From assembly GCA_030596605.1 (NCBI GenBank), contig JAUVJI010000001.1:1-64000 (forward strand): a stretch of 64,000 bases of DNA, read 5' to 3'. This DNA is from Bacteroidales bacterium. GTDB taxonomy: Bacteria; Bacteroidota; Bacteroidia; Bacteroidales; JAADJA01. The notes under the pieces were generated by a model that saw only the letters and a list, made by a program, of their open reading frames with translations, had not been told where the DNA came from and ran no database searches. Below, piece by piece: positions 25,591 to 59,412 of this stretch; position 1 is the first letter of the stretch; every line of letters starts with the position of its first letter. Both the position numbers and the translations under genes were made by a program.

Positions 25591-26445
25591 GGCTAAATTT
25601 TATTTTGATGTGCTGGCCATTAAATTGTTTCAAATATCCATAGTATTTTTGATTATTATTTTAAAAGATAATCCTGAAAGGATTTAACATAAAAAGCCCT
25701 GTACGAAGTGCAGGGAAGAATAGCAAAAAGTGAATAAGAAACCCTGCAAGGGTTCAATAAAAAAAATTGACCAATGAGTACTTACACACAAATTCTTTAT
25801 CAGATAGTTTTCGGCACAAAAAATAAAGAGCGGACCATGATAGAATCCGGTCAGGAAAGTCTCTATAAATATATCTGGGGAATCTTGAAAAATAAAAAAT
25901 GTCATTTATATCGCATTGGCGGAATAGAAGATCATATACATATTGTCACACACATACATCCTACTGTTGCGGTTGCATATTTAATAAAAGATATAAAGAT
26001 TGCTTCATCCGATTATATTAAAGCTGAAAATATTTTCCCCAAATTCAATGGTTGGCAAGATGGATATGGAGCATTTACTTACTCAATTTCGGCAAAAGAC
26101 AATTTGATTGAATATGTAGAAAATCAAAAAGAACACCATCAAAAAGTAAGTTTCAGGGACGAATATATCAGTTTGCTAAAAGAACATGGGATTGAATTTG
26201 AGGAGAAATATTTGTTATGATTTTGAACCCCGCAAGGGTTCTATGGCACCCTTTTGCCTATGCTCCCGTATTACTTGGAGCTATTCACATTAAACCACTT
26301 CATGGTTTTACATTGAAAATGAAGTGTTATTGAAAACAAAAAAATAGGTCCATCAATAAAATCCTTCAACCTATTATTGGCTATGGTGTGCACGACTTTT
26401 CTATAGTATAAATCTTTAACCAGCACATCAAAATAAAATTTAGCC
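25591..26445. repeat. 26-bp perfect inverted repeat flanking the Y1 transposase unit
   Basis: GGCTAAATTTTATTTTGATG plus TGCTGG at 25591-25616 recurs as its exact reverse complement at 26420-26445. The ~800-bp interior holds the transposase gene, two hairpins on its left (CCCTG...CAGGG around 25697-25715; AACCCTGCAAGGGTT around 25743-25757) and a matching AACCCCGCAAGGGTT on its right (about 26226-26240). IS200-type elements have hairpin ends and no terminal inverted repeats, so the 26-bp arms probably come from a separate inversion or duplication. Confidence 0.7.
25774..26220 (+). mobile_element. tnpA: Y1 (IS200/REP-associated) transposase gene
   Basis: 148 residues of the IS200/IS605 TnpA fold. 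The HUH metal-binding pair reads EDHIHIVTHIHP (HIH), and the catalytic Tyr lies in a helix near the C-terminus, probably within NLIEYVENQKEHHQ. TYTQILYQIVFGTKNKE at the start is the family's first strand. The gene is flanked closely by near-identical palindromes around AACCCYGCAAGGGTT, which fits single-strand transposition or a REP-associated (RAYT) domesticated system. The length is normal (about 150), so it is probably intact. Confidence 0.85.
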
Positions 26446-34048: not shown

Positions 34049-34897
34049 TTATGGACAAATAATATCCTGCAGGTTTTCATCCCAGCATCTCCAGTCAGGA
34101 TCACCGAAATGAAGCTCATCACTAACCCTTCCGTTTTTAGTAGTCCTGTGCCATTCAATGTCAGTTAGATTGTCGTTATTGGCACTGTAAATATTGTAAT
34201 AGGTATCGAATGGAAGGTTATTATTGACGCCATAAAATATATACCCGCCATTTTCAGGAGCACCGGGTTTTACATTGGTGTATTTAATATCAGCCTCACC
34301 AGTGGTTATATTCCTGTTCCATTCAATCTGTAGAAACTCATTCGGGTTATTTGGATTTTCATTCAAGTGCCATTCACCTGCTGTATTGGTTGAATTGGAG
34401 GTTCCATGAAACCACAGGAAGTCATTATACACATTTGTTTTCGAAATATACATTTCCCATTTTAATCCATCTGCATCAAGGGAACCTCTCAATTCGGCCA
34501 GATGAATTGCTCCACCGGCAACGAAATTATATGACCACACCCAGGCGTTGAGACCAGGATCCCATACTCCCTGGTGATTGAATGATTCATAGAATGCAGC
34601 TACAGGTACTACCAGGGTTATAGTAAGTACGGCATTCCAAACAGCTACATTAGTTGCAGCCCACCACCAATTTTGGTAGGTATATGCATACCCGCCTTTA
34701 AGTTTAGTTGTATCATTGTCCGGGAAATCCGAAAAATCCATTACAAATGAAGATGTCGGTGGCAATTCGGGCGCAGGCGCCGGATCTACATTGTTTTCGT
34801 CATCCTTATTACATCCTGTTGGGATAATTGCAATAATTAGGAGAATTACAAGAGAATAACGCTTTAGCTGACTGAATAAAAGATTTTTTGTTTTCAT
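34049..34897 (-). CDS. Lipoprotein downstream of the surface-fibre operon
   Basis: 282 residues from the second ATG (34897); an upstream Met at 34918 is possible. Signal peptide and lipobox (IIAIIPTGC, then NKDDENN) give a surface or periplasmic lipoprotein. A Pro/Asp linker follows, then a beta-rich domain with many Trp (TYQNWWWAATNVAVWN, NHQGVWDPGLNAWVWSYNF). The function is unknown. It lies 300 bp after the usher-like gene on the same strand. The gap (34919-35219) shows no gene, so it may or may not be in the same transcript. A role as tip adhesin or anchor is a guess. Confidence 0.7.
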   Translation of the reverse strand: MKTKNLLFSQLKRYSLVILLIIAIIPTGCNKDDENNVDPAPAPELPPTSSFVMDFSDFPDNDTTKLKGGYAYTYQNWWWAATNVAVWNAVLTITLVVPVAAFYESFNHQGVWDPGLNAWVWSYNFVAGGAIHLAELRGSLDADGLKWEMYISKTNVYNDFLWFHGTSNSTNTAGEWHLNENPNNPNEFLQIEWNRNITTGEADIKYTNVKPGAPENGGYIFYGVNNNLPFDTYYNIYSANNDNLTDIEWHRTTKNGRVSDELHFGDPDWRCWDENLQDIICP

Positions 34898-35219
34898 AAC
34901 ATGTTTATTTAATTTCAAATTTGAATTATTTATGGATAATCTTAAGTTTATGTTTCTGTTTTACGGTCATCTTGTTTGCAGTGTTTGATATAAATACACT
35001 TATTAAGCAAAATACCCCTATGAATTATTTTAAAAAATTGAAAAAACCGGATACATGAACTTGGATGCTTTGGATATCAATAGAAAAGGTAAGTTGGATT
35101 TATCGAAACAAGAATTTTCCCATTATTCCAGCTTTCCACTATTCCTAATTATTTTTCTAAATATAGCTTTTTAAGGGTACAATTCATATCCATCATAGAG
35201 GATAGGTTTTTAACGGAAG

Positions 35220-38216
35220 TTATTCTTCTATTTCTTCCCCGTTTTCATCGAAACGTTTAATTTTTACCTTTCTTTTCTTCTCTAGTATATGGAAGGTGAT
35301 AAACAGGTTATCTACCTGTCCGGTAAGATCAACTTTGTAATTATTTTGTACTAAATAATACCTGCCGTTCAGGATGTTTTCATCTAACGAAATGGTATAT
35401 TCACCAAAGGGGAGGTAAAACTCAAATCCACCATCCGAACCGGTGAGTGTATTGAAAGTATGTCCGTTAGTTGCAGAGATTTTTATTCCTGAAATATCTA
35501 ATTTTTTATCCTCCATTGGTTTTAAATCCTCCTGATCGATATATACACTTCCATATATCTTAACACCTTTTACAAAAGGAATGTTAATTAGTTCGTCCTT
35601 AAATATTTTTAATGAATCCGTGGTAATAGGAAACCATCCTTTTAAGTTCTCAAGCGAAAGAACCGAATATTCAAAGTTTCCCGGATTAGCATTATTTAAA
35701 GAAGCCCTTCCGTTACTTTTCGTAATGATGCTCCAGTCACCTACACGGATCACAATATTTCCTAATCCCGGTTCATCTTCATCCTGCACATTATTTCCAT
35801 TCAGATCATAAAATGCCACAAATCCCATATTTGCATACTCATTATAAGTAGTTGGAATAGGAATGCCAAAATCTTTTTTTACACCCACACTTACAAGGAA
35901 GTTGTCGTGTGAATAACGCTGGAATTCCCAATCCTGGTCAGCTATATATGAGGGCATGTCATTATAATTGGTCGAAAACTTGGATGTATAGAAAGTATAA
36001 GCCGGGTTTATACTTATCCTCCAACCCGAATTCGTGAAATAATACAGTTCCGGACTTATGTTGATAGAGTGATGGTTATACATATTGGTGTACCCATAAC
36101 TCACCATCGACTGCAAAACCAGGTGCCTGTTCTTAAATAAATATTGATGGATAATGGAGACTCTTATATTTTGCGGTATGATGTTATTTTGCTCCTTAAA
36201 GTGCACCATGGCCGGTGAATATGGGCCATAGTTGTAAAATCCTGTGAAACTGAAATTATGATACCTGATCATGGTATTTAGCTTGCAAACAAATTGATCT
36301 TTACTTCCTGGCTCATTTACAATTTTACTCATCCCCAGGGTTGAAGTAAACGACATTTGTAAGTTTCGTGTTATATCATAATTACTGTAGGCTAAATTAA
36401 TTCCCCTAACATGAAAATTATAACCGTAATTACTTCTGATATCATAAAAAATTCCCGGTTTCAGGTTAGGTAGGTACCTGGCCGAATGAAGATTTAATGA
36501 ATTGAAGAAATAGTAGTTTTTATCAAATCCGGGAATATAATTATAATGATCCGGATCATATTGGTAGTGATTGTAATTATTGATCATTGAAAGCTCAAAA
36601 TCTTTTGTTATACTAACCCGCGACCGGTGATTGACAAACCATCTTTCAAATCCATACGACCCAAAACCTTTGGATGTATATGATCCCCTGAGATTCAATT
36701 TCCATCTTCTTTCGAAAAAATTGCTGGTATAACCGGCTCCAACAAGATAACCTTGCTTATTGAACCTATTATTTGGATCAGCATAATGCTGCCGATTGCT
36801 TAAAGCGCCCATAAATGTAATAGTATGCTTTTGCTGGAGTCTTAGCTTGGGCGCTACAGAAATCACATCCGTAATAATATCAGCGGCATAATGATGACTA
36901 TGCGAGTATTGCGTTAGATTCGTGAAATTATCTAATTCCAACCTGTGATGAAGCCCCCAGGATTCAAGTCTTGGTTTTTCAAAAATATAAGGTGACCTGA
37001 CATAATATCCTCCTCCCCATTGGTTCGGAAGGAACTTTATCTCACCCTTTACCCCTTTACCGCTACTTTGAACTCCAATAGCTCCACCATTAACATTACC
37101 TATTTGAAAGCTTTTATTATCATCAAAATAACCTATATACCATGGGATATTTTTAATGTAATTATCACCATAGAAATTTGATTGTGATGAAAAATACATG
37201 CTTGTATTGTAGAATAGATTTCCGCCATTGTTAAAATTCTTTTGACCACGCAGGTGCAAGCTTGAAAATACAACGTCATCCAGCAGGTTTGTTACCCGAA
37301 GGTAGGCCGACAATGGAAGTACATCACTACCATAAGGATTGACCTTTTTATCGCTCTGGAGTTTGATGAAATCAACTTTTGTATTTCGGCTTGTATTGCT
37401 GTGATTAAATCTTCGGGGTTCTTCCGAGTGAAAGAATAAACTGAAATGTTTTTCTTCGTTGAGGGATTCGGGATTGTAATTTTCAATGTCAATGTTTTTA
37501 AAATTTCTCTGGCCTTCTGTATATTTAACTTTGTAAGAGAGTGTTGTGTCTTCTTGCGGTTCTAACGAAAAATCCCATTTATTCATTTTTGTTGCTTTCT
37601 CATTTGAGTCCATAACAATGAGACTGCTCTTGATGTTGGACATGGTCATCAACAGGTCTTGTTTCTCATTGCCGGTGTTGATAAGGCTTAGGTCGAATCC
37701 AGCTGTATTTTCGTCATTTTTAAAATAAATCCTTTGATCAGGGTTGGCTATCATTTCCCATTGACTTATTCGTTCAGTTGAGGCAAAAAAGTATGCACCT
37801 GCAATTTGTTCCCTGTTTTCGTTTTCGATAAATGCATTGATGTAATATTTGGTATCTCCTTTCATCATTGCTTCCGGAATAATTCTAACAGGAATAAATA
37901 TCGAGTCATTATCAGGAATTACATACATTCGGTCAGAAATGAATAGAGTTTTCCAAAGAGGCGGATAATTCAAACTTACAAATACTTTCAGGGAATCACT
38001 GCTGATATTTATTATTCTTAAAACGTTTGAAATGATTTCCCCTTTATTTATTTCAGTTTCTTCATTTACAAAGGATATCTCGATGGAATGGGTTGTTGCA
38101 CCTTTAATAAAGAATGTATTTACTTGTGTATATGAAGAATGGCTGAATGAAAGCAGACACATTAGGCTTATAAAGGCTGGAAATATCTTATTAATATGTA
38201 GTTTGCAAATATTCAT
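35220..38216 (-). CDS. Large outer-membrane barrel protein, usher-like
   Basis: 998 residues with a signal peptide (ISLMCLLSFSHSSYTQ). Residues ~40-270 look like Ig/NEW3-type domains (NVLRIINISSDSLKVFVSLN). About 280-800 is rich in alternating Tyr/aromatic beta strands (GQKNFNNGGNLFYNTSMYFS, SPYIFEKPRLESWGLHHRLE), typical of a large barrel. The C-terminal ~200 residues hold an SdrD B-like/plug-type domain (VAFYDLNGNNVQDEDEPGLG) and a carboxypeptidase-regulatory-like domain (GSDGGFEFYLPFGEYTISLD). The order resembles chaperone-usher ushers, which also have a barrel plus small Ig-like C-terminal domains. It is 8 bp after the subunit gene in the same operon. The usher role is inferred from architecture and neighbours. 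Confidence 0.65.
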   Translation of the reverse strand: MNICKLHINKIFPAFISLMCLLSFSHSSYTQVNTFFIKGATTHSIEISFVNEETEINKGEIISNVLRIINISSDSLKVFVSLNYPPLWKTLFISDRMYVIPDNDSIFIPVRIIPEAMMKGDTKYYINAFIENENREQIAGAYFFASTERISQWEMIANPDQRIYFKNDENTAGFDLSLINTGNEKQDLLMTMSNIKSSLIVMDSNEKATKMNKWDFSLEPQEDTTLSYKVKYTEGQRNFKNIDIENYNPESLNEEKHFSLFFHSEEPRRFNHSNTSRNTKVDFIKLQSDKKVNPYGSDVLPLSAYLRVTNLLDDVVFSSLHLRGQKNFNNGGNLFYNTSMYFSSQSNFYGDNYIKNIPWYIGYFDDNKSFQIGNVNGGAIGVQSSGKGVKGEIKFLPNQWGGGYYVRSPYIFEKPRLESWGLHHRLELDNFTNLTQYSHSHHYAADIITDVISVAPKLRLQQKHTITFMGALSNRQHYADPNNRFNKQGYLVGAGYTSNFFERRWKLNLRGSYTSKGFGSYGFERWFVNHRSRVSITKDFELSMINNYNHYQYDPDHYNYIPGFDKNYYFFNSLNLHSARYLPNLKPGIFYDIRSNYGYNFHVRGINLAYSNYDITRNLQMSFTSTLGMSKIVNEPGSKDQFVCKLNTMIRYHNFSFTGFYNYGPYSPAMVHFKEQNNIIPQNIRVSIIHQYLFKNRHLVLQSMVSYGYTNMYNHHSINISPELYYFTNSGWRISINPAYTFYTSKFSTNYNDMPSYIADQDWEFQRYSHDNFLVSVGVKKDFGIPIPTTYNEYANMGFVAFYDLNGNNVQDEDEPGLGNIVIRVGDWSIITKSNGRASLNNANPGNFEYSVLSLENLKGWFPITTDSLKIFKDELINIPFVKGVKIYGSVYIDQEDLKPMEDKKLDISGIKISATNGHTFNTLTGSDGGFEFYLPFGEYTISLDENILNGRYYLVQNNYKVDLTGQVDNLFITFHILEKKRKVKIKRFDENGEEIEE

Positions 38217-38224
38217 TCGAAATT

Positions 38225-38854
38225 TTATGGTACTTCAACCAATGCAAATTTTACCTGTAACTGATAAATCCCGGGATCAAAACCGAAGCTTGGTACAATC
38301 CTGAAGTCAATCTGAAAATGGAATTCATCATAATTCATCATATAATTACCGGGGCCATTCACATTTTTTTGGCATGATCCGGCATTAACACGAATACCCG
38401 TGTTTTCAATAATTTCAATAAAATCGCCTGTTTCTGTGAAAGTTTGGTATATTCCGTCGATGGGTGAAGTATTACAAATATTGGTCACCCTTACTTCCAG
38501 AATATCAATTTTAGCCGGGCTGGAACTTCCGGCTCCATAGGTTGATAATGTTTCCCAGTGTGTAGCCCCCGTCCCTGATGAAGGATGATTTTCTACCGTC
38601 ATGGTGAGCATCCATTTACATCCAGGATTTGGCGGCGCCTGGTCATCAACTTTTACATTTACTTTAGCCGTTCCGTGATAGGTAATACCGGCGATGTATT
38701 TACTGAATGAATCAAATACATAATCAACCTGTTCGCTGGTATTTGGAACAATCTCAACATCAGCACAAACAATTTGTGCCTTTACTTCAAGTATCCAGAT
38801 CATAAAAATTATGACCAGAAGTCCGTTACCTATTTTTATGTTTTTGTAATTCAC
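38225..38854 (-). CDS. Secreted surface-structure subunit (minor, putative)
   Basis: 209 residues with a signal peptide (GNGLLVIIFMIWILEVKAQ). It shares two features with the next gene's product: an N-terminal EQVDYVFDSFSKYIAGITYHG block and a C-terminal DPGIYQLQVKFALVEVP strand. Three or more Cys suggest disulfides. The fold is probably a single beta-sandwich. The shared C-terminal strand (PGxYxxxVxxxLVE) may be an export or donor-strand signal. It lies between the other subunit and the usher-like gene. Confidence 0.7.
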   Translation of the reverse strand: MNYKNIKIGNGLLVIIFMIWILEVKAQIVCADVEIVPNTSEQVDYVFDSFSKYIAGITYHGTAKVNVKVDDQAPPNPGCKWMLTMTVENHPSSGTGATHWETLSTYGAGSSSPAKIDILEVRVTNICNTSPIDGIYQTFTETGDFIEIIENTGIRVNAGSCQKNVNGPGNYMMNYDEFHFQIDFRIVPSFGFDPGIYQLQVKFALVEVP

Positions 38855-38914
38855 TTATCTGTTAATTTTTTTAAAAACAGGGACGATGAAAAGACACCGT
38901 CCCCGTTTATAATT

Positions 38915-39706
38915 TTACTGGTCTTCGACCAATACATACTGTACATACATAGTATATACTCCAGGTTCAGCATAGCTGTTAGGTCCGTTAACTGTTACCA
39001 GGTCCTCAGCTGTTGTTGCATCAGCATCAAAAGCATTCGGAAAAATAGCTGGTAATCCGGGTAATAACCTGTAATCAACTACATAGTAGAAATCACTGGT
39101 ATAACCACCGGCAGTCAGGTATGAACCACCTGGCATAGCATCATCACCAAGAGCTGAAGTACCGGAATGGCCGGCAATATATTTATCAGCTACAGTTGGC
39201 GGTGTTAAAGTACCATTGTTTACATAAAGGCTGTTAGCCCCGTTGTGAACATGTGAAGCAGGATACGGAGTGGAATAATCGATATAAGTAGCGGTAATTC
39301 CGGCTCCACCTGCACCACTGTTAGGTTGCGACTGGTGTAATTCAACACAGCTCAATGGGAGTTGATTGATGGCATTGGTACCAGAACCTGATCCGTAATC
39401 AATTACTTGATCCCAGAATTCGGGTCCTATTGTACCGTTTGAACGGCCAACAGCATACAAGTCCCAACTTACAGTTGAACTCACCTTTAAGATAGTTGCT
39501 CCGTATTTTGTGATACCGGCATAATAATCCTTGATATCGTCAAATACGAATTCAATTTGATCTGCAGTTTCCATATCCAACTGAAGGATAGGTTGCAAAT
39601 CCATTGTGATCGTTACCGACTTCTCATCCTGTAACTGGGCGAAAAGTCCATTCTGTAATCCCATTACCAATGCGAGTACAGCAATAATTAATAGTCTGCT
39701 TTTCAT
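38915..39706 (-). CDS. Secreted surface-structure subunit (major, putative)
   Basis: 263 residues with a signal peptide (IIAVLALVMGLQNGLFAQ). The N-terminal block DQIEFVFDDIKDYYAGITKY matches the smaller subunit, and the C-terminus ends EPGVYTMYVQYVLVEDQ in the same way. In between lies a Gly/Ser/Ala-rich region (YGSGSGTNAINQLP, GGAGITATYIDYS) usual for secreted fibre or adhesin proteins. It is probably the main building block of a surface filament exported by the usher-like protein. It begins 238 bp after the chaperone-like gene; that gap has no gene and no clear promoter box. Confidence 0.7.
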   Translation of the reverse strand: MKSRLLIIAVLALVMGLQNGLFAQLQDEKSVTITMDLQPILQLDMETADQIEFVFDDIKDYYAGITKYGATILKVSSTVSWDLYAVGRSNGTIGPEFWDQVIDYGSGSGTNAINQLPLSCVELHQSQPNSGAGGAGITATYIDYSTPYPASHVHNGANSLYVNNGTLTPPTVADKYIAGHSGTSALGDDAMPGGSYLTAGGYTSDFYYVVDYRLLPGLPAIFPNAFDADATTAEDLVTVNGPNSYAEPGVYTMYVQYVLVEDQ

Positions 39707-39944
39707 AAGCTTAATTTAATTTAGTTAATAAAAAAAAGATTGAATAGGACATCTTGGTTGGTCTATATATTATTTTCAGATAAAATTCTTTTAAGGCTAT
39801 AGTTGCCATTAATACCTCCTTTCTTAAATTTTTTTGTTAATGCTTAATTGGTTTTAAAACTTTAATTTATTTTCCTTTCGTAATAATTTTCATTTTAAGT
39901 TTCATTATTAAAATTTTCAAAAAATTTGGTATGTAAGATTTGGT

Positions 39945-40835
39945 TTATTCAATTGTTAGTTCCAGTTCAGCAGCTACTATTTCCTCATCACTATTGTAGT
40001 CCATCACACCCACTGCAGAATAGTTGCCTTTTGGTAGATCATCGGGTAGGTCAAAAATAAAAACCCGTTTATATCCCGGTAAAATTGTATAGCTTTTACC
40101 TCCCAATGATACTTGATCACCGGTATTTAAATTTGTCATCTCTACATAAGCTTTGGCGAATGAAATACCATCGCCTTCATTTTCGACACTTAGCATTAAT
40201 AATTTTTTACCGTCATCTTTTATTTCATAAGAGAAGGATTTGATATCCACACTCATATTATCTACATTGGGTGGGTTTTGATATACCCATATTCCAAATG
40301 CAAAAGTTGGAGTAATACCAAATGCAATGGTTTCTCCGGTTGCATTACCCGGATCCAATACCTTTTTTTCTTCAACTTGTTCTATCAGCACAACTCCCCA
40401 GGCTGCTTTCCTGGCATTTGGGCCGGCAGATACCTTTACGGTTACTGAAACCACTTCAGATGTTCCTGGCGGGAGTTCTATGAAAGTAGGGGAGAGGTTG
40501 ATCATTTTTGACATGCTGAATTCACTGGTTCCTGGTTCCATGAAAGAACTTTTTCCGTATTTACCAATATCAAAATCATTGTATTTGACCCTGAATTTTT
40601 GGACTGATCCTGTGTAATTTGTCACCTTAATGGTTTTAGTTTTAATTTCTCCAACGTCTACATTAAAGTTCAGGTGTGATGGTGACACTGTTACACCTTT
40701 ATTATATTTGTCATCATCATCACTGCCAGGATTTTCAGAGGTAGTTGCCCTCAAAAAGTGACTAAAAACAAGGATGAACAAAGCATTTAACAGGAGAATC
40801 AGCATGGATTCCAGCGAGAGATAATTCTTTTTCAT
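39945..40835 (-). CDS. Periplasmic PapD-like/WxL-interacting-type chaperone-like protein
   Basis: 296 residues with a hydrophobic N-terminus (SMLILLLNALFILVFSHF) for export. VTVSPSHLNFNVDVGEIKTK, then TIKVTN, is the opening strand of PapD-like or COG1470-like Ig folds ('v.P..l.f.l..Ge..t..i.v.N'). A second domain (VENEGDGISFAKAYVEMTNL) ends in LPKGNYSAVGVMDY. The two-Ig-domain layout is that of fimbrial chaperones, and it heads a block of two secreted subunits and an usher-like barrel. No classical Arg/Lys pair can be assigned without alignment. It may bind subunits by strand complementation. Confidence 0.65.
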   Translation of the reverse strand: MKKNYLSLESMLILLLNALFILVFSHFLRATTSENPGSDDDDKYNKGVTVSPSHLNFNVDVGEIKTKTIKVTNYTGSVQKFRVKYNDFDIGKYGKSSFMEPGTSEFSMSKMINLSPTFIELPPGTSEVVSVTVKVSAGPNARKAAWGVVLIEQVEEKKVLDPGNATGETIAFGITPTFAFGIWVYQNPPNVDNMSVDIKSFSYEIKDDGKKLLMLSVENEGDGISFAKAYVEMTNLNTGDQVSLGGKSYTILPGYKRVFIFDLPDDLPKGNYSAVGVMDYNSDEEIVAAELELTIE

Positions 40836-43741: not shown

Positions 43742-45034
43742 CTATTTCAATTTCACTATCCTTTCAGTTTGAATGAAATCATTATTACTTATTATTAAAA
43801 TGTATATTCCCGAATTCAGATGCGATAAATCAATCTCTCCTGGATTTCGGCTATAAAAATTTATCTCAAAAAGTTTTTCTCCGGTAATATTATAAATTTC
43901 AGCCGAAACCAGTTCAACAATCTGAACCGGTTTAATCTTAAGTTTATTAATGAAAGGATTAGGAAATATGTCAATATGATTTAATTCAACTGGATTATTT
44001 ATAATATTTGATAATCCTCCATTTTCTGTCTTCAAGATTATTTCATGCAAACCCGAGCCCCAGGTAACTCCATGTATATAACCTGTTTGATCATCAATCA
44101 TTTTGATTTTTCTCAATTCGTAAGCCTCATGAGGTAGTATTTGGGATGACCATGATAGTCCCCCATCGTTTGTTCTGTAAACCATATTATTATGCGATAT
44201 AACCCAGCCAGTTAAAGGATCAGTAAAACTCATTGAAATAACTGGTGAGCTGATATTTGTATTAATTATTGTCCATGAATTACCTATATCTATGGTTTTA
44301 TAAATTTTCCCAGATGCACCAGAAACAAAGCACACAGAATCGGATGGGGCACATAAATCCAAAAATGATTCGGTGCTGTCAGATAAAACCAGGTCCCAAT
44401 TATTACCGTCATCCAGCGTTCTAAGTAACTTTCTTCGATGTTGACTAAAAGGTTCGGCGAAAATAATGTAACCGATTTGATTGTCAGTAAAATACAATTT
44501 TGAATTGTATGCATTTACATCATATGGTAATGTATCGGTAACATAAAAATAATCATTTACATATCGCATGGTCTGTTTTCCATTTATACCATATCCTTTT
44601 ATGCCATGGATAAAAAACATGTTTACCGGACCATTATTTTGTATTATTTCCCAGGTTACACCACCATTAAAACTCCTAACTACAGTATTAGTAGAATTAA
44701 AATTGTAGCAAAAAAAACCTGTATCCACATTTGGGAATTCAAGGTCATAGGCCAGATAAGAATAGTCTAAATAATTTATTAATATGGACCAGGATACTCC
44801 ATCATTTATTGTTTTTCTGACGACCATATGAGCCATAGAACTTGGTGTACCAGGATCGTGAGTGTAGTAATGAAAAATAGTACCATTGTCAATAAACTTA
44901 GCATAATGGTAAACAAAACCAGAATTCTCGTCGTGAGTAAACATGGTGTCTATAATAACCCACTGACCTGAAGCAAGATTTGCTATTGCGAGAAAAATAA
45001 TTAGATATTTGAAAACTTTTGATTTCATGACCAC
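43742..45034 (-). CDS. Secreted YCF48/BNR-repeat protein with type IX sorting domain
   Basis: 430 residues with a signal peptide (FKYLIIFLAIANLASGQ). Repeated 'dGGxtW' blades (NDGVSWSILIN, FNGGVTWEIIQ, NDGGLSWSSQI) mark a YCF48/BNR propeller. The last ~75 residues are a type A T9SS sorting domain (IDIFPNPFINKLKI...NLSGIYILII-type strand, ending ERIVKLK). It is exported to the surface by the type IX machinery, which is not in this window. It confirms the phylum. The exact activity is unclear: a sugar-binding or housekeeping propeller. Confidence 0.85.
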   Translation of the reverse strand: MVMKSKVFKYLIIFLAIANLASGQWVIIDTMFTHDENSGFVYHYAKFIDNGTIFHYYTHDPGTPSSMAHMVVRKTINDGVSWSILINYLDYSYLAYDLEFPNVDTGFFCYNFNSTNTVVRSFNGGVTWEIIQNNGPVNMFFIHGIKGYGINGKQTMRYVNDYFYVTDTLPYDVNAYNSKLYFTDNQIGYIIFAEPFSQHRRKLLRTLDDGNNWDLVLSDSTESFLDLCAPSDSVCFVSGASGKIYKTIDIGNSWTIINTNISSPVISMSFTDPLTGWVISHNNMVYRTNDGGLSWSSQILPHEAYELRKIKMIDDQTGYIHGVTWGSGLHEIILKTENGGLSNIINNPVELNHIDIFPNPFINKLKIKPVQIVELVSAEIYNITGEKLFEINFYSRNPGEIDLSHLNSGIYILIISNNDFIQTERIVKLK

Positions 45035-46217: not shown

Positions 46218-47081
46218 ATGAAAAATTTAAAAATGGGTTGGATCCCTGATTACCCTGACTTCAGGGATTACGATGAAACAACCAAAGACATTAAGCAGGA
46301 ATTAAACAAAATCAGATTAACCCCTCCCCAGAGTTATAAAATGAAACCTTCCGTTGACCTTAAGCAATGGTTTTCGGATGTTGAAGACCAGGGAAATATC
46401 GGTTCGTGTACAGCCAATGCAGCCGTTGGTGTATTTGAATATTTTCAGCGCAGGGCTTTTGGTCAGCACATGGAAGGATCAAGGCTCTTTTTGTATAAAG
46501 CTACCCGAAACTTAATGGGACTTACAGGAGATACCGGAGCTTACCTGCGTTCAAGTATGGGAGCTATGGTTTTGTTCGGTATTCCGGATGAAAAGTACTG
46601 GCCTTACATTGAAAATGATTATGACATTGAACCACCGGCATTTTGTTATGGCTTTGCAGAAAATTTTAAAGCCACCAAGTATTACAGGCTGGATCAGCAG
46701 GGTATTTCAAAGCAAGGTTTACTGAACAGAATCAAACTGTTCCTGGCTGCCGGCCTGCCAAGCATGTTCGGATTTACAGTTTTCGGTTCAATTAGCCAGG
46801 CGAGCCAATCAGGTGAAATACCATTTCCTTCACAAAAAGAAAATTATCTTGGAGGCCATGCTGTTACTACTGCTGGATATGATGATAGCAAGAAAATAAA
46901 GAATCAGATTGACGGGAAAGAAACAACCGGAGCCTTTTTAATCCGAAATTCCTGGGGAACATCATGGGGCGATAATGGCTATGGATGGCTTCCCTATGAG
47001 TACATTTTACAAGGAATAGCTATCGATTGGTGGTCTGTGATTAAAACTGATTGGGTAGATACCGGTAAGTTCGGGATATAA
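46218..47081 (+). CDS. Papain-like (C1) cysteine peptidase, cytoplasmic
   Basis: 287 residues without a signal peptide. The catalytic Cys is in DQGNIGSCTANAAVG, His in GGHAVTTAGYDD, and Asn in RNSWGTSWGDNGYGW. The start GWIPDYPDFRDYDE matches the 'G..PD..D.RDY' prelude of bacterial C1A peptidases. The length fits the catalytic domain with a short pro-like leader. It is the first gene after the 49-bp element and is followed 89 bp later by the clostripain-like gene. It may process host or stress-signalling proteins. Confidence 0.88.
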   Translation: MKNLKMGWIPDYPDFRDYDETTKDIKQELNKIRLTPPQSYKMKPSVDLKQWFSDVEDQGNIGSCTANAAVGVFEYFQRRAFGQHMEGSRLFLYKATRNLMGLTGDTGAYLRSSMGAMVLFGIPDEKYWPYIENDYDIEPPAFCYGFAENFKATKYYRLDQQGISKQGLLNRIKLFLAAGLPSMFGFTVFGSISQASQSGEIPFPSQKENYLGGHAVTTAGYDDSKKIKNQIDGKETTGAFLIRNSWGTSWGDNGYGWLPYEYILQGIAIDWWSVIKTDWVDTGKFGI

Positions 47082-47170
47082 AATAATATTGATAAGTATC
47101 TTCCCCAATTTCTGAGACAATTATTTTTTTATTACCTAATTTTTAAACAAAAAACAAGGAGGAACAAAAA

Positions 47171-48712
47171 ATGAAAAGTACAAAATTATTAAATACTATT
47201 GAAGCAGGTTGTATTTATCTGCTTATGTTCGGTCTGTTTTCAGGATGTGCACCATACATCAAATCGTTTAATCCAGAAAGCGGAACTTCAGGGACATTAG
47301 TAAATATTAACGGTGGCAGATTTAGTTCAACTGCTGCAGGAAATACTGTAAAATTTGCCAATGCTGTGGTCCCAACATCTGATATTACAGTTACATCAAC
47401 AAGTAAATTAAAAGTAAAAGTTCCAACTGGAGCAACGACTGGTCTCATCTCAGTTTCAACCAGTAAAGGGATAGGTAAAAGTAATAAGAACTTTATCATT
47501 AATAATCAATCACCTAAATGGACTTTTATGGTGTATTTAGATGCGGATAATAATCTGGAATACGCTGGTATTGATGATTTTCTTGAAATGTCTTCAGTTG
47601 GATCTAACAGTAATATTAATATTGTTATTCAGATGGATCGCATAACTGGACATAGTGATGAATATGGAAACTGGACTGGTACAAGACGATTTTTAATTCA
47701 AAGCGGTGATACTCCATCAATCACCCCTGTTATGGATCTTGGTGAACAAAATATGGGAGATCCTAATACCTTAAGTGATTTTGTAGAATGGGCCATTACC
47801 AATTATCCGGCTGATCATTATGCACTATCGATTTGGAATCATGGAGATGGCTGGCGATTAAATCGTAACATCATGGATTCATTAGTTACTCTGAATAGAA
47901 GTGGTTATAATGAAACTCTTGTAAAGGCTGTAGCCAGCGATGATACAGATGGCGATATTTTGTATATGCGCGAGGTTCAAGATGCATTATCCTTAGCAAA
48001 AACTAATCTCGACAATCGAAATAATACCAATGTAAAACTTGATGTTGTTGGATTTGATGCATGTTTAATGGGAATGATAGAAGTAGCATATGCTATTAGA
48101 AGTGTAGCTAATTATATGGTTGGCTCTGAAGAGCTTGAACCAGGTGATGGCTGGCCTTATAACACCATATTGGCAGATTTAAATTCAAATCCGAATATGA
48201 CTGCCGAAGAATTTGCAAAAACCATTGTTGTAAAGTATGAAGATTCATATTCAAGTGGTGTAACCCAATCGACATATGATTTAAGCGAATTAAATAATCT
48301 GACGTCGAGTATCAATAACTTTACAGGTAAAGCAACTACTGATTGGACGGTATTAAAATCTGCCAGAAATAATTCAAGGGATTACCATATTAGTTACTAC
48401 ACTCAATTCTGGGGTACTGATTTATGGGATTTCGCAGATGAAGTATACAACTCGACAAGCAATGTTGATATCAAAAATGCTTCTGCCGATTTAAAAAACG
48501 CTATCGATGCTTTTGTTGTGGAAGAAAAACATAGTTCTGATATGTCAGGTTCACATGGTGTCGCCATATATTTTCCACCTGACCAAAGCAGTTTCAACAA
48601 TGATCCGCAACATACAGGCTATCTTGAGACCAACACGTTTATGGTTGTTGATTTTGTTGCTCACCATACCTGGGATAATTGGCTGCAGGATTATTATATC
48701 AACATACCATAG
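47171..48712 (+). CDS. TIG-domain/clostripain-like (C11) cysteine peptidase, lipoprotein
   Basis: 513 residues with a lipobox (LMFGLFSGC, then APYIKS). An IPT/TIG domain (about 33-113: FNPESGTSGTLVNINGGRFS) precedes a C11 peptidase domain that starts WTFMVYLDADNNLEYAGIDD, with His in WNHGDGW and Cys in GFDACLMGM. C11 enzymes cleave after basic residues and belong to the caspase-like fold. Together with the C1 peptidase it makes a surface/cytoplasm pair under one element. A strong terminator follows. Confidence 0.88.
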   Translation: MKSTKLLNTIEAGCIYLLMFGLFSGCAPYIKSFNPESGTSGTLVNINGGRFSSTAAGNTVKFANAVVPTSDITVTSTSKLKVKVPTGATTGLISVSTSKGIGKSNKNFIINNQSPKWTFMVYLDADNNLEYAGIDDFLEMSSVGSNSNINIVIQMDRITGHSDEYGNWTGTRRFLIQSGDTPSITPVMDLGEQNMGDPNTLSDFVEWAITNYPADHYALSIWNHGDGWRLNRNIMDSLVTLNRSGYNETLVKAVASDDTDGDILYMREVQDALSLAKTNLDNRNNTNVKLDVVGFDACLMGMIEVAYAIRSVANYMVGSEELEPGDGWPYNTILADLNSNPNMTAEEFAKTIVVKYEDSYSSGVTQSTYDLSELNNLTSSINNFTGKATTDWTVLKSARNNSRDYHISYYTQFWGTDLWDFADEVYNSTSNVDIKNASADLKNAIDAFVVEEKHSSDMSGSHGVAIYFPPDQSSFNNDPQHTGYLETNTFMVVDFVAHHTWDNWLQDYYINIP

Positions 48713-58197: not shown

Positions 58198-59412
58198 TTA
58201 TTGCAATCCCAATTTTTTACGAATGTCCTTAGGAATCGCATCTTTATGAACCATGATATCTATGGTCTTTAATCTGACAAAAGCATCTGATGCATAAAAG
58301 TATCCGTCATAAATGTGATCAGTGGTTCCCCATGAGTTTTTGACTTTATAAAATTTGTTGCCATCCTGGTCTTCAGCAATACCGGTAATTTGCATACCAT
58401 GATCATCCGTTGTGGAATAATTGTCGAATTCTTGCTGACGCATTTCCTGCGTAATATTTTTTTCTTTTACAGGGCCATCAAAACAGTACAGCGCTTTCTT
58501 TTTCTCATCCTTTGTCAGCTTCTCCCATTTTTCTTTTTCTGATCCACTTAAATCGGTGAGTTCTTCATCAGGTACGATGGCTACTCCATTTTTCCAGGAG
58601 AATCCTTTTTCACTAATGTCACTTCCCCATCCGATAGTAAATCCATTTTCTAATGCATAATCCATGATCTCCATCATTTCATCCAATGGAACATTGTAGA
58701 CTTTGTCAAGCATCCAATTATCAGGAATCTCCAGGATGAATTTTTCATAAAAAGGGTGGTGTGTGTAAGATCCGATCTCAATGTAATCCTCCGTATTTAT
58801 TTCGAGTTCATCAGCAAAGGAACGAGGTGTATATTCTTTGCCATTATAAGTAAAACTTTCAGGACATTCACCTAAATAGGCATCCAGTATTCCTTCAAAT
58901 CCCTGATACCATACAGGTGTTAATTTTTTGTTTTTATTTTTAATTACCGCATCAATATAGCCTCGTGTTACAGCATCCAATTCACCATGAATATGATTGT
59001 CTTCTCCTATCACCTTTCCATTATACACTTCTTCCGGTACAATTCCATATTCGTTTATCACATGTAAAACATCATGGAATGCACCTCCGCCTGAAAAGTT
59101 AAATTCTCCATGAAAACGAACATATTTCTGAGCCTTTTCAGAATAAGTTTGCCTTACAATAAACATCTCTGACAGATCGTATTCTTCTTTTCCCATTCTT
59201 AATAGTTCTGATTCAATAAATGCAAGGGATGAAAAACTCCAGCATGTGCTTGACTTGTATTGATTTTTTATGGGAGTTTCGTCGTTTTCAGTAATAATGG
59301 TAAATTCATATCCCTTTGGTTCTTTGGTTTCTTCTTCCTGGGCAAGTATGATATCAGTTGTTAATACGAAAGTAAAAACTATTAGGAAAAAGTGTAAAGT
59401 TATTTTTTTCAT
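58198..59412 (-). CDS. Exported PepC/bleomycin-hydrolase-like C1 aminopeptidase
   Basis: 404 residues with a signal peptide (LHFFLIVFTFVLTTDIILAQ). The catalytic Cys is in YKSSTCWSFSSLAFIE, His in TTDDHGMQITGIAED, and Asn in VKNSWGTTDHIYDGY. The long insert between Cys and His fits the PepC/BLH family. Most such enzymes are cytoplasmic; the export signal is usual for this phylum's versions. It probably trims peptides in the periplasm. Confidence 0.88.
   Translation of the reverse strand: MKKITLHFFLIVFTFVLTTDIILAQEEETKEPKGYEFTIITENDETPIKNQYKSSTCWSFSSLAFIESELLRMGKEEYDLSEMFIVRQTYSEKAQKYVRFHGEFNFSGGGAFHDVLHVINEYGIVPEEVYNGKVIGEDNHIHGELDAVTRGYIDAVIKNKNKKLTPVWYQGFEGILDAYLGECPESFTYNGKEYTPRSFADELEINTEDYIEIGSYTHHPFYEKFILEIPDNWMLDKVYNVPLDEMMEIMDYALENGFTIGWGSDISEKGFSWKNGVAIVPDEELTDLSGSEKEKWEKLTKDEKKKALYCFDGPVKEKNITQEMRQQEFDNYSTTDDHGMQITGIAEDQDGNKFYKVKNSWGTTDHIYDGYFYASDAFVRLKTIDIMVHKDAIPKDIRKKLGLQ

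Follow-up and report, generated by a model that had tools for sequence, protein, structure and literature searches.

The shaft subunit of a chaperone-usher pilus has a donor strand, which its tip subunit lacks. Filaments named TLP-1 were reportedly obtained from pond water by CryoSeek, in work said to be that of Wang et al. (PNAS 2024, doi 10.1073/pnas.2417046121). A 2026 review states that matching the TLP-1 filament to sequences had not been possible (PMC12967142). The fimbriae known from Bacteroidota are mainly of type V (FimA/Mfa1), the pilins of which are lipoproteins activated by proteolysis and have no known chaperone or usher; for Porphyromonas gingivalis, no chaperones or ushers have been described (PMC5789003). 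An earlier reading made from the DNA letters alone (hereafter, the sequence-only reading) had stated that Bacteroidota are not known for classical chaperone-usher pili, and the literature searched contains no description of a chaperone-usher system in this phylum. In Gram-positive bacteria, the WxL-interacting protein (WxLIP) has been proposed to supply WxL domains with an inserted strand (PMC10599100). Here we describe a four-gene operon in a 64,000-nucleotide stretch ("the window") of a Bacteroidales genome (contig JAUVJI010000001.1, positions 1 to 64,000). The order announced by the sequence-only reading, namely a chaperone-like immunoglobulin (Ig) protein, two secreted subunits (A and B) and a 998-residue barrel protein, is found as four open reading frames (ORFs) on the minus strand from 40835 to 35220. 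Its probable product is a divergent pilus assembly system of Bacteroidota, of the chaperone-usher type.

The subunit A gene (38915-39706, minus strand, 263 aa) encodes the predicted major rod subunit, a clear sequence homologue of the helical-filament protein TLP-1a/b. The window protein alone (phmmer against the PDB) matches 9ikk_A (E-value = 1.2e-43) and 9ikj_A (E-value = 4.5e-42) with about 40% identity. Its residues 26-261 align with residues 3-236 of the TLP-1 chain, so that the homology covers the whole mature chain including the N-terminal segment. The family profile of subunit A exhibits exactly two matches among all solved PDB chains, 9ikk (E-value = 2e-26) and 9ikj (E-value = 8e-26). 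These two entries, of 16 chains each, are entitled "Cryo-EM structure of TLP-1b" and "Cryo-EM structure of TLP-1a", respectively, and were released on 2024-11-13. We take TLP to stand for Tsinghua Lotus Pond, and we assign both entries to the CryoSeek work by their names, their release date and the citing review. When 393 genomes were searched with TLP-1b as the query, eight strong matches were obtained (E-values from 3e-42 to 8e-48, 39-43% identity), all eight being the subunit A of this type of operon; no sequence identical to TLP-1 was present in the genomes searched. The structural comparison by Foldseek also places 9ikj_A first for the subunit A model (E-value = 3.3e-16). Its further neighbours, with weak E-values, are mostly donor-strand pilins (TasA, PapA, archaeal thread 0406, SafA, CS20 and PapG pilin). 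TLP-1a and TLP-1b are known only as a pond-water filament, whereas the homologue here comes with genes for a chaperone, a second subunit and a barrel, from which a fibre is predicted.

The subunit B gene (38225-38854, minus strand, 209 aa, GTG start) encodes a paralogue of subunit A with a shorter N-terminus. The N-terminal (VFDDIKDYYAGITKYG / VFDSFSKYIAGITYHG) and C-terminal (PGVYTMYVQYVLVE / PGIYQLQVKFALVE) blocks by which the sequence-only reading had related the two subunits are both present, and the kinship is beyond chance: the two families align end to end (hhalign, probability 99.5%, E-value = 3e-23). The subunit B family profile also matches the TLP-1 chains (E-value = 1e-7). After its signal peptide, at about residues 26-40, subunit A exhibits a conserved donor-strand-like segment (DEKSVTITMDLQPIL) of alternating hydrophobic residues, which reads SVTITMDLQPILQL in the window and VIPVSVTLNSILRL elsewhere. 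As the TLP-1 chain starts at the processed N-terminus of subunit A, this segment is ordered in the TLP-1 filament. With cleavage sites set by a simple rule (a hydrophobic core, then a small residue and glutamine) in place of a trained predictor, an invariant glycine lies 41-42 residues from the processed N-terminus in nearly all subunits A and 25-31 residues from it in most subunits B. The N-terminus of A is longer than that of B by at least 8 residues in 27 of the 38 operons (Wilcoxon p = 1e-6). Given the chaperone-usher precedent, a donor-like segment carried by A and mostly absent from B suggests that A is the rod subunit and that B is likely the tip, or terminal, subunit. The subunit B of three other loci (L054, L057 and L065) has an A-like N-terminal length with a different motif (VKKVNENLYxI), and the assignment of tip and rod may be different at these loci. 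At L057, L059 and L065 the operon has three or four subunit paralogues, which suggests composite fibres.

The subunit A and B genes are separated by a 60-nt gap folding at -23.3 kcal/mol (z = -7.8). This gap contains a terminator- or attenuator-like hairpin predicted by RNA folding (38875-38908, minus strand), followed by a T run. A hairpin (z < -1.5) occupies the same position in 33 of 35 operons (median z = -5.2); the hairpin sequences are unrelated. A leaky terminator after A, lowering the expression of B and of the usher, would leave A in excess, that is, an abundant rod subunit with scarce tip and usher. Between the subunit B and barrel genes the gap is 8 bases in the window, and usually at most 30 bases elsewhere. 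No match to the Bacteroidota -7/-33 promoter pattern was found at the operon.

The chaperone-like gene (39945-40835, minus strand) is a 296-aa ORF encoding a signal peptide and two Ig-like domains of the PapD/WxLIP type. In an hhalign comparison with eight K-12 chaperones, both domains align end to end with FimC (P = 1.2e-4, with a probability of only 55%). The two proteins have in common a proline-hydrophobic stretch ahead of the E strand region and a C-terminal DYG stretch, conserved as a DY(G/N) motif at the C-terminus of the family. Against the PDB, the chaperone profile matches EfmWxLIP1 over both domains (E-value = 3e-4). The most consistent Pfam matches among 22 chaperone homologues, all weak, are fn3_5 (19/22), Cep192/ASH and WxLIP_PGBD (14/22, best 6e-7), and PapD_N is matched in 6/22 (best 7e-4); fn3_5, WxLIP_PGBD and PapD_N are below cut-off in the window protein, and PF00345 as a marker is absent in the relatives apart from one marginal PapD_N match. 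The designation of a chaperone-like Ig protein is supported by the two-domain alignment with FimC and the DYG motif, and has to be widened in that the protein is at least as close to a Gram-positive WxL-interacting protein as to PapD. The proposed strand lending by WxLIP would fit a possible common strand-lending ancestry with PapD-type chaperones.

The fourth gene (35220-38216, minus strand, 998 aa) encodes a predicted usher-like outer-membrane barrel protein. The protein has a signal peptide, and its AlphaFold2 model (predicted local distance difference test, pLDDT, 81.5; predicted template modelling score, pTM, 0.53) shows two Ig domains at the N-terminus (about 45-232), a barrel of approximately 24-26 long strands (about 302-783) and two C-terminal beta-sandwich domains (about 795-979). 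This is the architecture of ushers (an N-terminal domain, a barrel of about 24 strands and two C-terminal beta domains), reproduced here with low template modelling (TM) scores. The four best PDB matches by Foldseek are FimD ushers, 3rfz_E (E-value = 5.3e-13), 9bog, 9fy9 and 9fw9 (E-values to 3e-12), and PapC (7lhg) is the tenth (E-value = 5.7e-10). The closest TonB receptor (E-value = 4.5e-7) is about six orders of magnitude behind FimD; the barrel is not of OmpA, TonB or PorV type. The C-terminal domains are SdrD_B-like and CarboxypepD_reg-like in 29/33 and 30/33 relatives, respectively, and only weakly so in the window protein. The N-terminal Ig domain resembles the first domain of the chaperone (hhalign probability 56%) rather than the N-domain of ushers. 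An OmpA-type peptidoglycan-binding domain is found on 13 of 33 barrel homologues and a SPOR domain on 4 of 33; these would tie the pore to peptidoglycan. We know of no usher carrying an OmpA-type or SPOR domain.

The four genes are a conserved module, their arrangement being repeated in dozens of genomes. In single-protein searches of 247 genomes of the order, relatives of the barrel were found in 41 genomes. The chaperone (E-value < 1e-25) also occurs in 41, and 39 genomes have both. Subunit A occurs in 37 genomes, 36 of which it shares with either of the two, and is present in 36 of the 41 barrel genomes. The co-occurrence of barrel, chaperone and subunit A yields Fisher p-values from 1e-36 to 1e-40, inflated by genome relatedness. 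Genomes bearing the module span dozens of families, and its distribution is patchy inside one genus: no A-like gene was found in three other congeners searched with the TLP-1b sequence. A, B and the barrel are adjacent in 38 loci, with the chaperone gene before, after or a few genes off. The chaperone-A-B-barrel set is also present in more distant Bacteroidota. At L111-L114, from such distant species and in some cases from single-contig genomes, the barrel homologues are smaller (931-948 aa) and the chaperone gene lies between or beside the subunit genes; in some of these loci one subunit is long (about 340 aa) and may be a tip adhesin bearing an additional domain. The closest named records are uncultured Bacteroidales genomes (barrel, 92% identity), and a single-protein contig scan with the barrel yielded no more than six loci, every one of them in an uncultured genome. 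In the source assembly, which is incomplete (88% complete, 218 contigs), the chaperone and the barrel are single-copy each.

Several observations weigh against a chaperone-usher-type interpretation. The barrel exhibits no sequence similarity to seven K-12 ushers (hhalign probability <1%). PF00577 is over cut-off in none of 60 barrel relatives, with an E. coli control positive, and has no match in the window barrel. The sequence-only reading had assigned usher-like Ig or plug-type domains to the C-terminus of the barrel: the beta-sandwich domains are there, and no plug insertion large enough is seen in the model between the barrel strands (302-783). The TM-scores of the barrel to FimD and PapC are low (0.26-0.38) and unrelated Ig-rich (axonemal) proteins also match it, so that Foldseek supports the architecture and not a precise superposition; part of the barrel-usher fold signal may come from the shared Ig domains. 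The positions of the PapD basic cleft residues, which we take to be R8 and K112, are not invariant among the chaperone homologues. The chaperone gene does not always adjoin A-B-barrel, the N-terminus of B equals or exceeds that of A in 6 of the 38 operons, and the monomer model of subunit A, in which the N-terminal segment lies outside the sheet, is of moderate quality (pLDDT of only 64). Lacking both a plug and sequence similarity to PF00577, the modelled barrel is called "usher-like" here, not a shown member of the PF00577 usher family. On the other side, the fold match to FimD/PapC, the alignment with FimC, the homology of subunit A to a filament and the lack of a T9SS (type IX secretion system) tag largely support the surface-fibre operon proposed by the sequence-only reading. 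There is good support for a system working like chaperone-usher systems, with PF00577 and the plug both negative.

The likeness to chaperone-usher systems (Fim, Pap and the archaic Csu/CupE) includes the predicted chaperone, Ig-like pilins with an N-terminal donor-like segment, a second subunit with a short N-terminus, and a large barrel with an N-terminal and two C-terminal domains having FimD/PapC as its best Foldseek matches. The end-to-end alignment of the chaperone with FimC and the Ig-barrel-Ig architecture could even be taken for an ordinary member of a known chaperone-usher family, overlooked by the family models. This is very improbable and already disfavoured by the tests: neither PF00577 nor PF00345 is over cut-off in the window proteins, Pfam and NCBIfam give nothing above cut-off for any of five of them (the four operon proteins and the downstream lipoprotein), and there is no similarity to K-12 ushers or pilins, A and B having no sequence link to the latter apart from a signal-peptide match. 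Moreover, in contrast to the known systems, the barrel has no sequence relationship to ushers and no plug, two Ig domains resembling the chaperone replace the usher N-domain, some barrels bear OmpA or SPOR domains, and the host belongs to Bacteroidota instead of Proteobacteria.

The chaperone is related to the tandem pair of Ig domains of the Gram-positive WxL/WxLIP (DUF916-DUF3324) clusters, and a WxL-like surface complex would account for the match to EfmWxLIP1, for WxLIP_PGBD in 14/22 homologues, for the proposed strand insertion by WxLIP and for the OmpA-type domain on some barrel homologues. In such a complex, the WxLIP-type two-Ig protein would stay bound to A and B at the surface, the barrel being a mere anchor, and no polymer would form. 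We consider this distinctly unlikely: Pfam detected no WxL domain among 59 homologues of A and B, the relatives of A (TLP-1a/b) are helical filaments, a filament-type partner in a Gram-negative host, and such a complex would leave the invariant extra N-terminal segment of A without a function. Unlike WxLIP, the chaperone ends directly after its second domain and has no membrane helix to anchor it. The barrel could also be an anchor and not a pore, with chaperone-aided TLP-1-type filaments leaving the cell by the T9SS or by assembling spontaneously in the manner of type V pili. The absence of a plug and of a sequence link to ushers, the OmpA or SPOR domains of some homologues and the T9SS cargo encoded nearby would fit this view. 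It is nonetheless unlikely: A and B carry neither a T9SS sorting domain nor a lipoprotein signal, and the barrel co-occurs strictly with the chaperone and A and has ushers as its fold matches. Like type V pili, the predicted fibre would be a surface fibre of Bacteroidota; unlike those of type V pilins, the signal peptides of A and B are ordinary and without a lipobox, and neither subunit has a fimbrillin Pfam match. Neither A nor B has a T9SS C-terminal sorting domain, in a search that is positive for the neighbouring gene at 43742-45034. A and B were accordingly rejected as T9SS cargo.

For the favoured chaperone-usher-type system, we infer the following mechanism. A and B would be exported by Sec, and in the periplasm the two-Ig chaperone would lend a strand to each incomplete Ig-like subunit and so hold it. 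The 998-residue barrel may then take up the chaperone-subunit complexes and serve as the secretion pore, where the N-terminal segment of each incoming A would displace the chaperone strand in the preceding subunit. By such strand exchange, the chain of A would grow outward behind a tip of B into a thin helical fibre of the TLP-1 type, presumably for adhesion. As to its origin, we can suggest only tentatively that the barrel evolved into an usher on a line separate from that of the known ushers, the chaperone coming from the common stock of PapD and WxLIP, and the N-terminal Ig domains of the barrel from the chaperone.

The operon supplies genes, a putative assembly machine and a phylum for a "structure first" pond-water filament that had been left unmatched to sequences (PMC12967142). 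It would place a chaperone-usher-type route in a phylum with fimbriae known mainly as type V, and provides a possible link between PapD-type chaperones and the Gram-positive WxL partners.

The lipoprotein announced after the operon does exist (34049-34918, minus strand). It is not a conserved part, with relatives at no more than two of the loci searched (L086 and L088), and was rejected as a component of the system. The gene at 43742-45034 (minus strand) encodes a secreted protein that combines a YCF48-like repeat domain with a C-terminal sorting domain for the T9SS (Por_Secre_tail, E-value = 7e-10). This shows that the organism uses the T9SS, while the predicted pilus subunits lack its tag. 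Elsewhere in the window, several cysteine peptidases of the papain family, the clostripain family and Peptidase_C1_2 are encoded (46218-48712, plus strand; 58198-59412, minus strand), and an IS200-like (Y1) transposase is encoded at 25774-26220 (plus strand).

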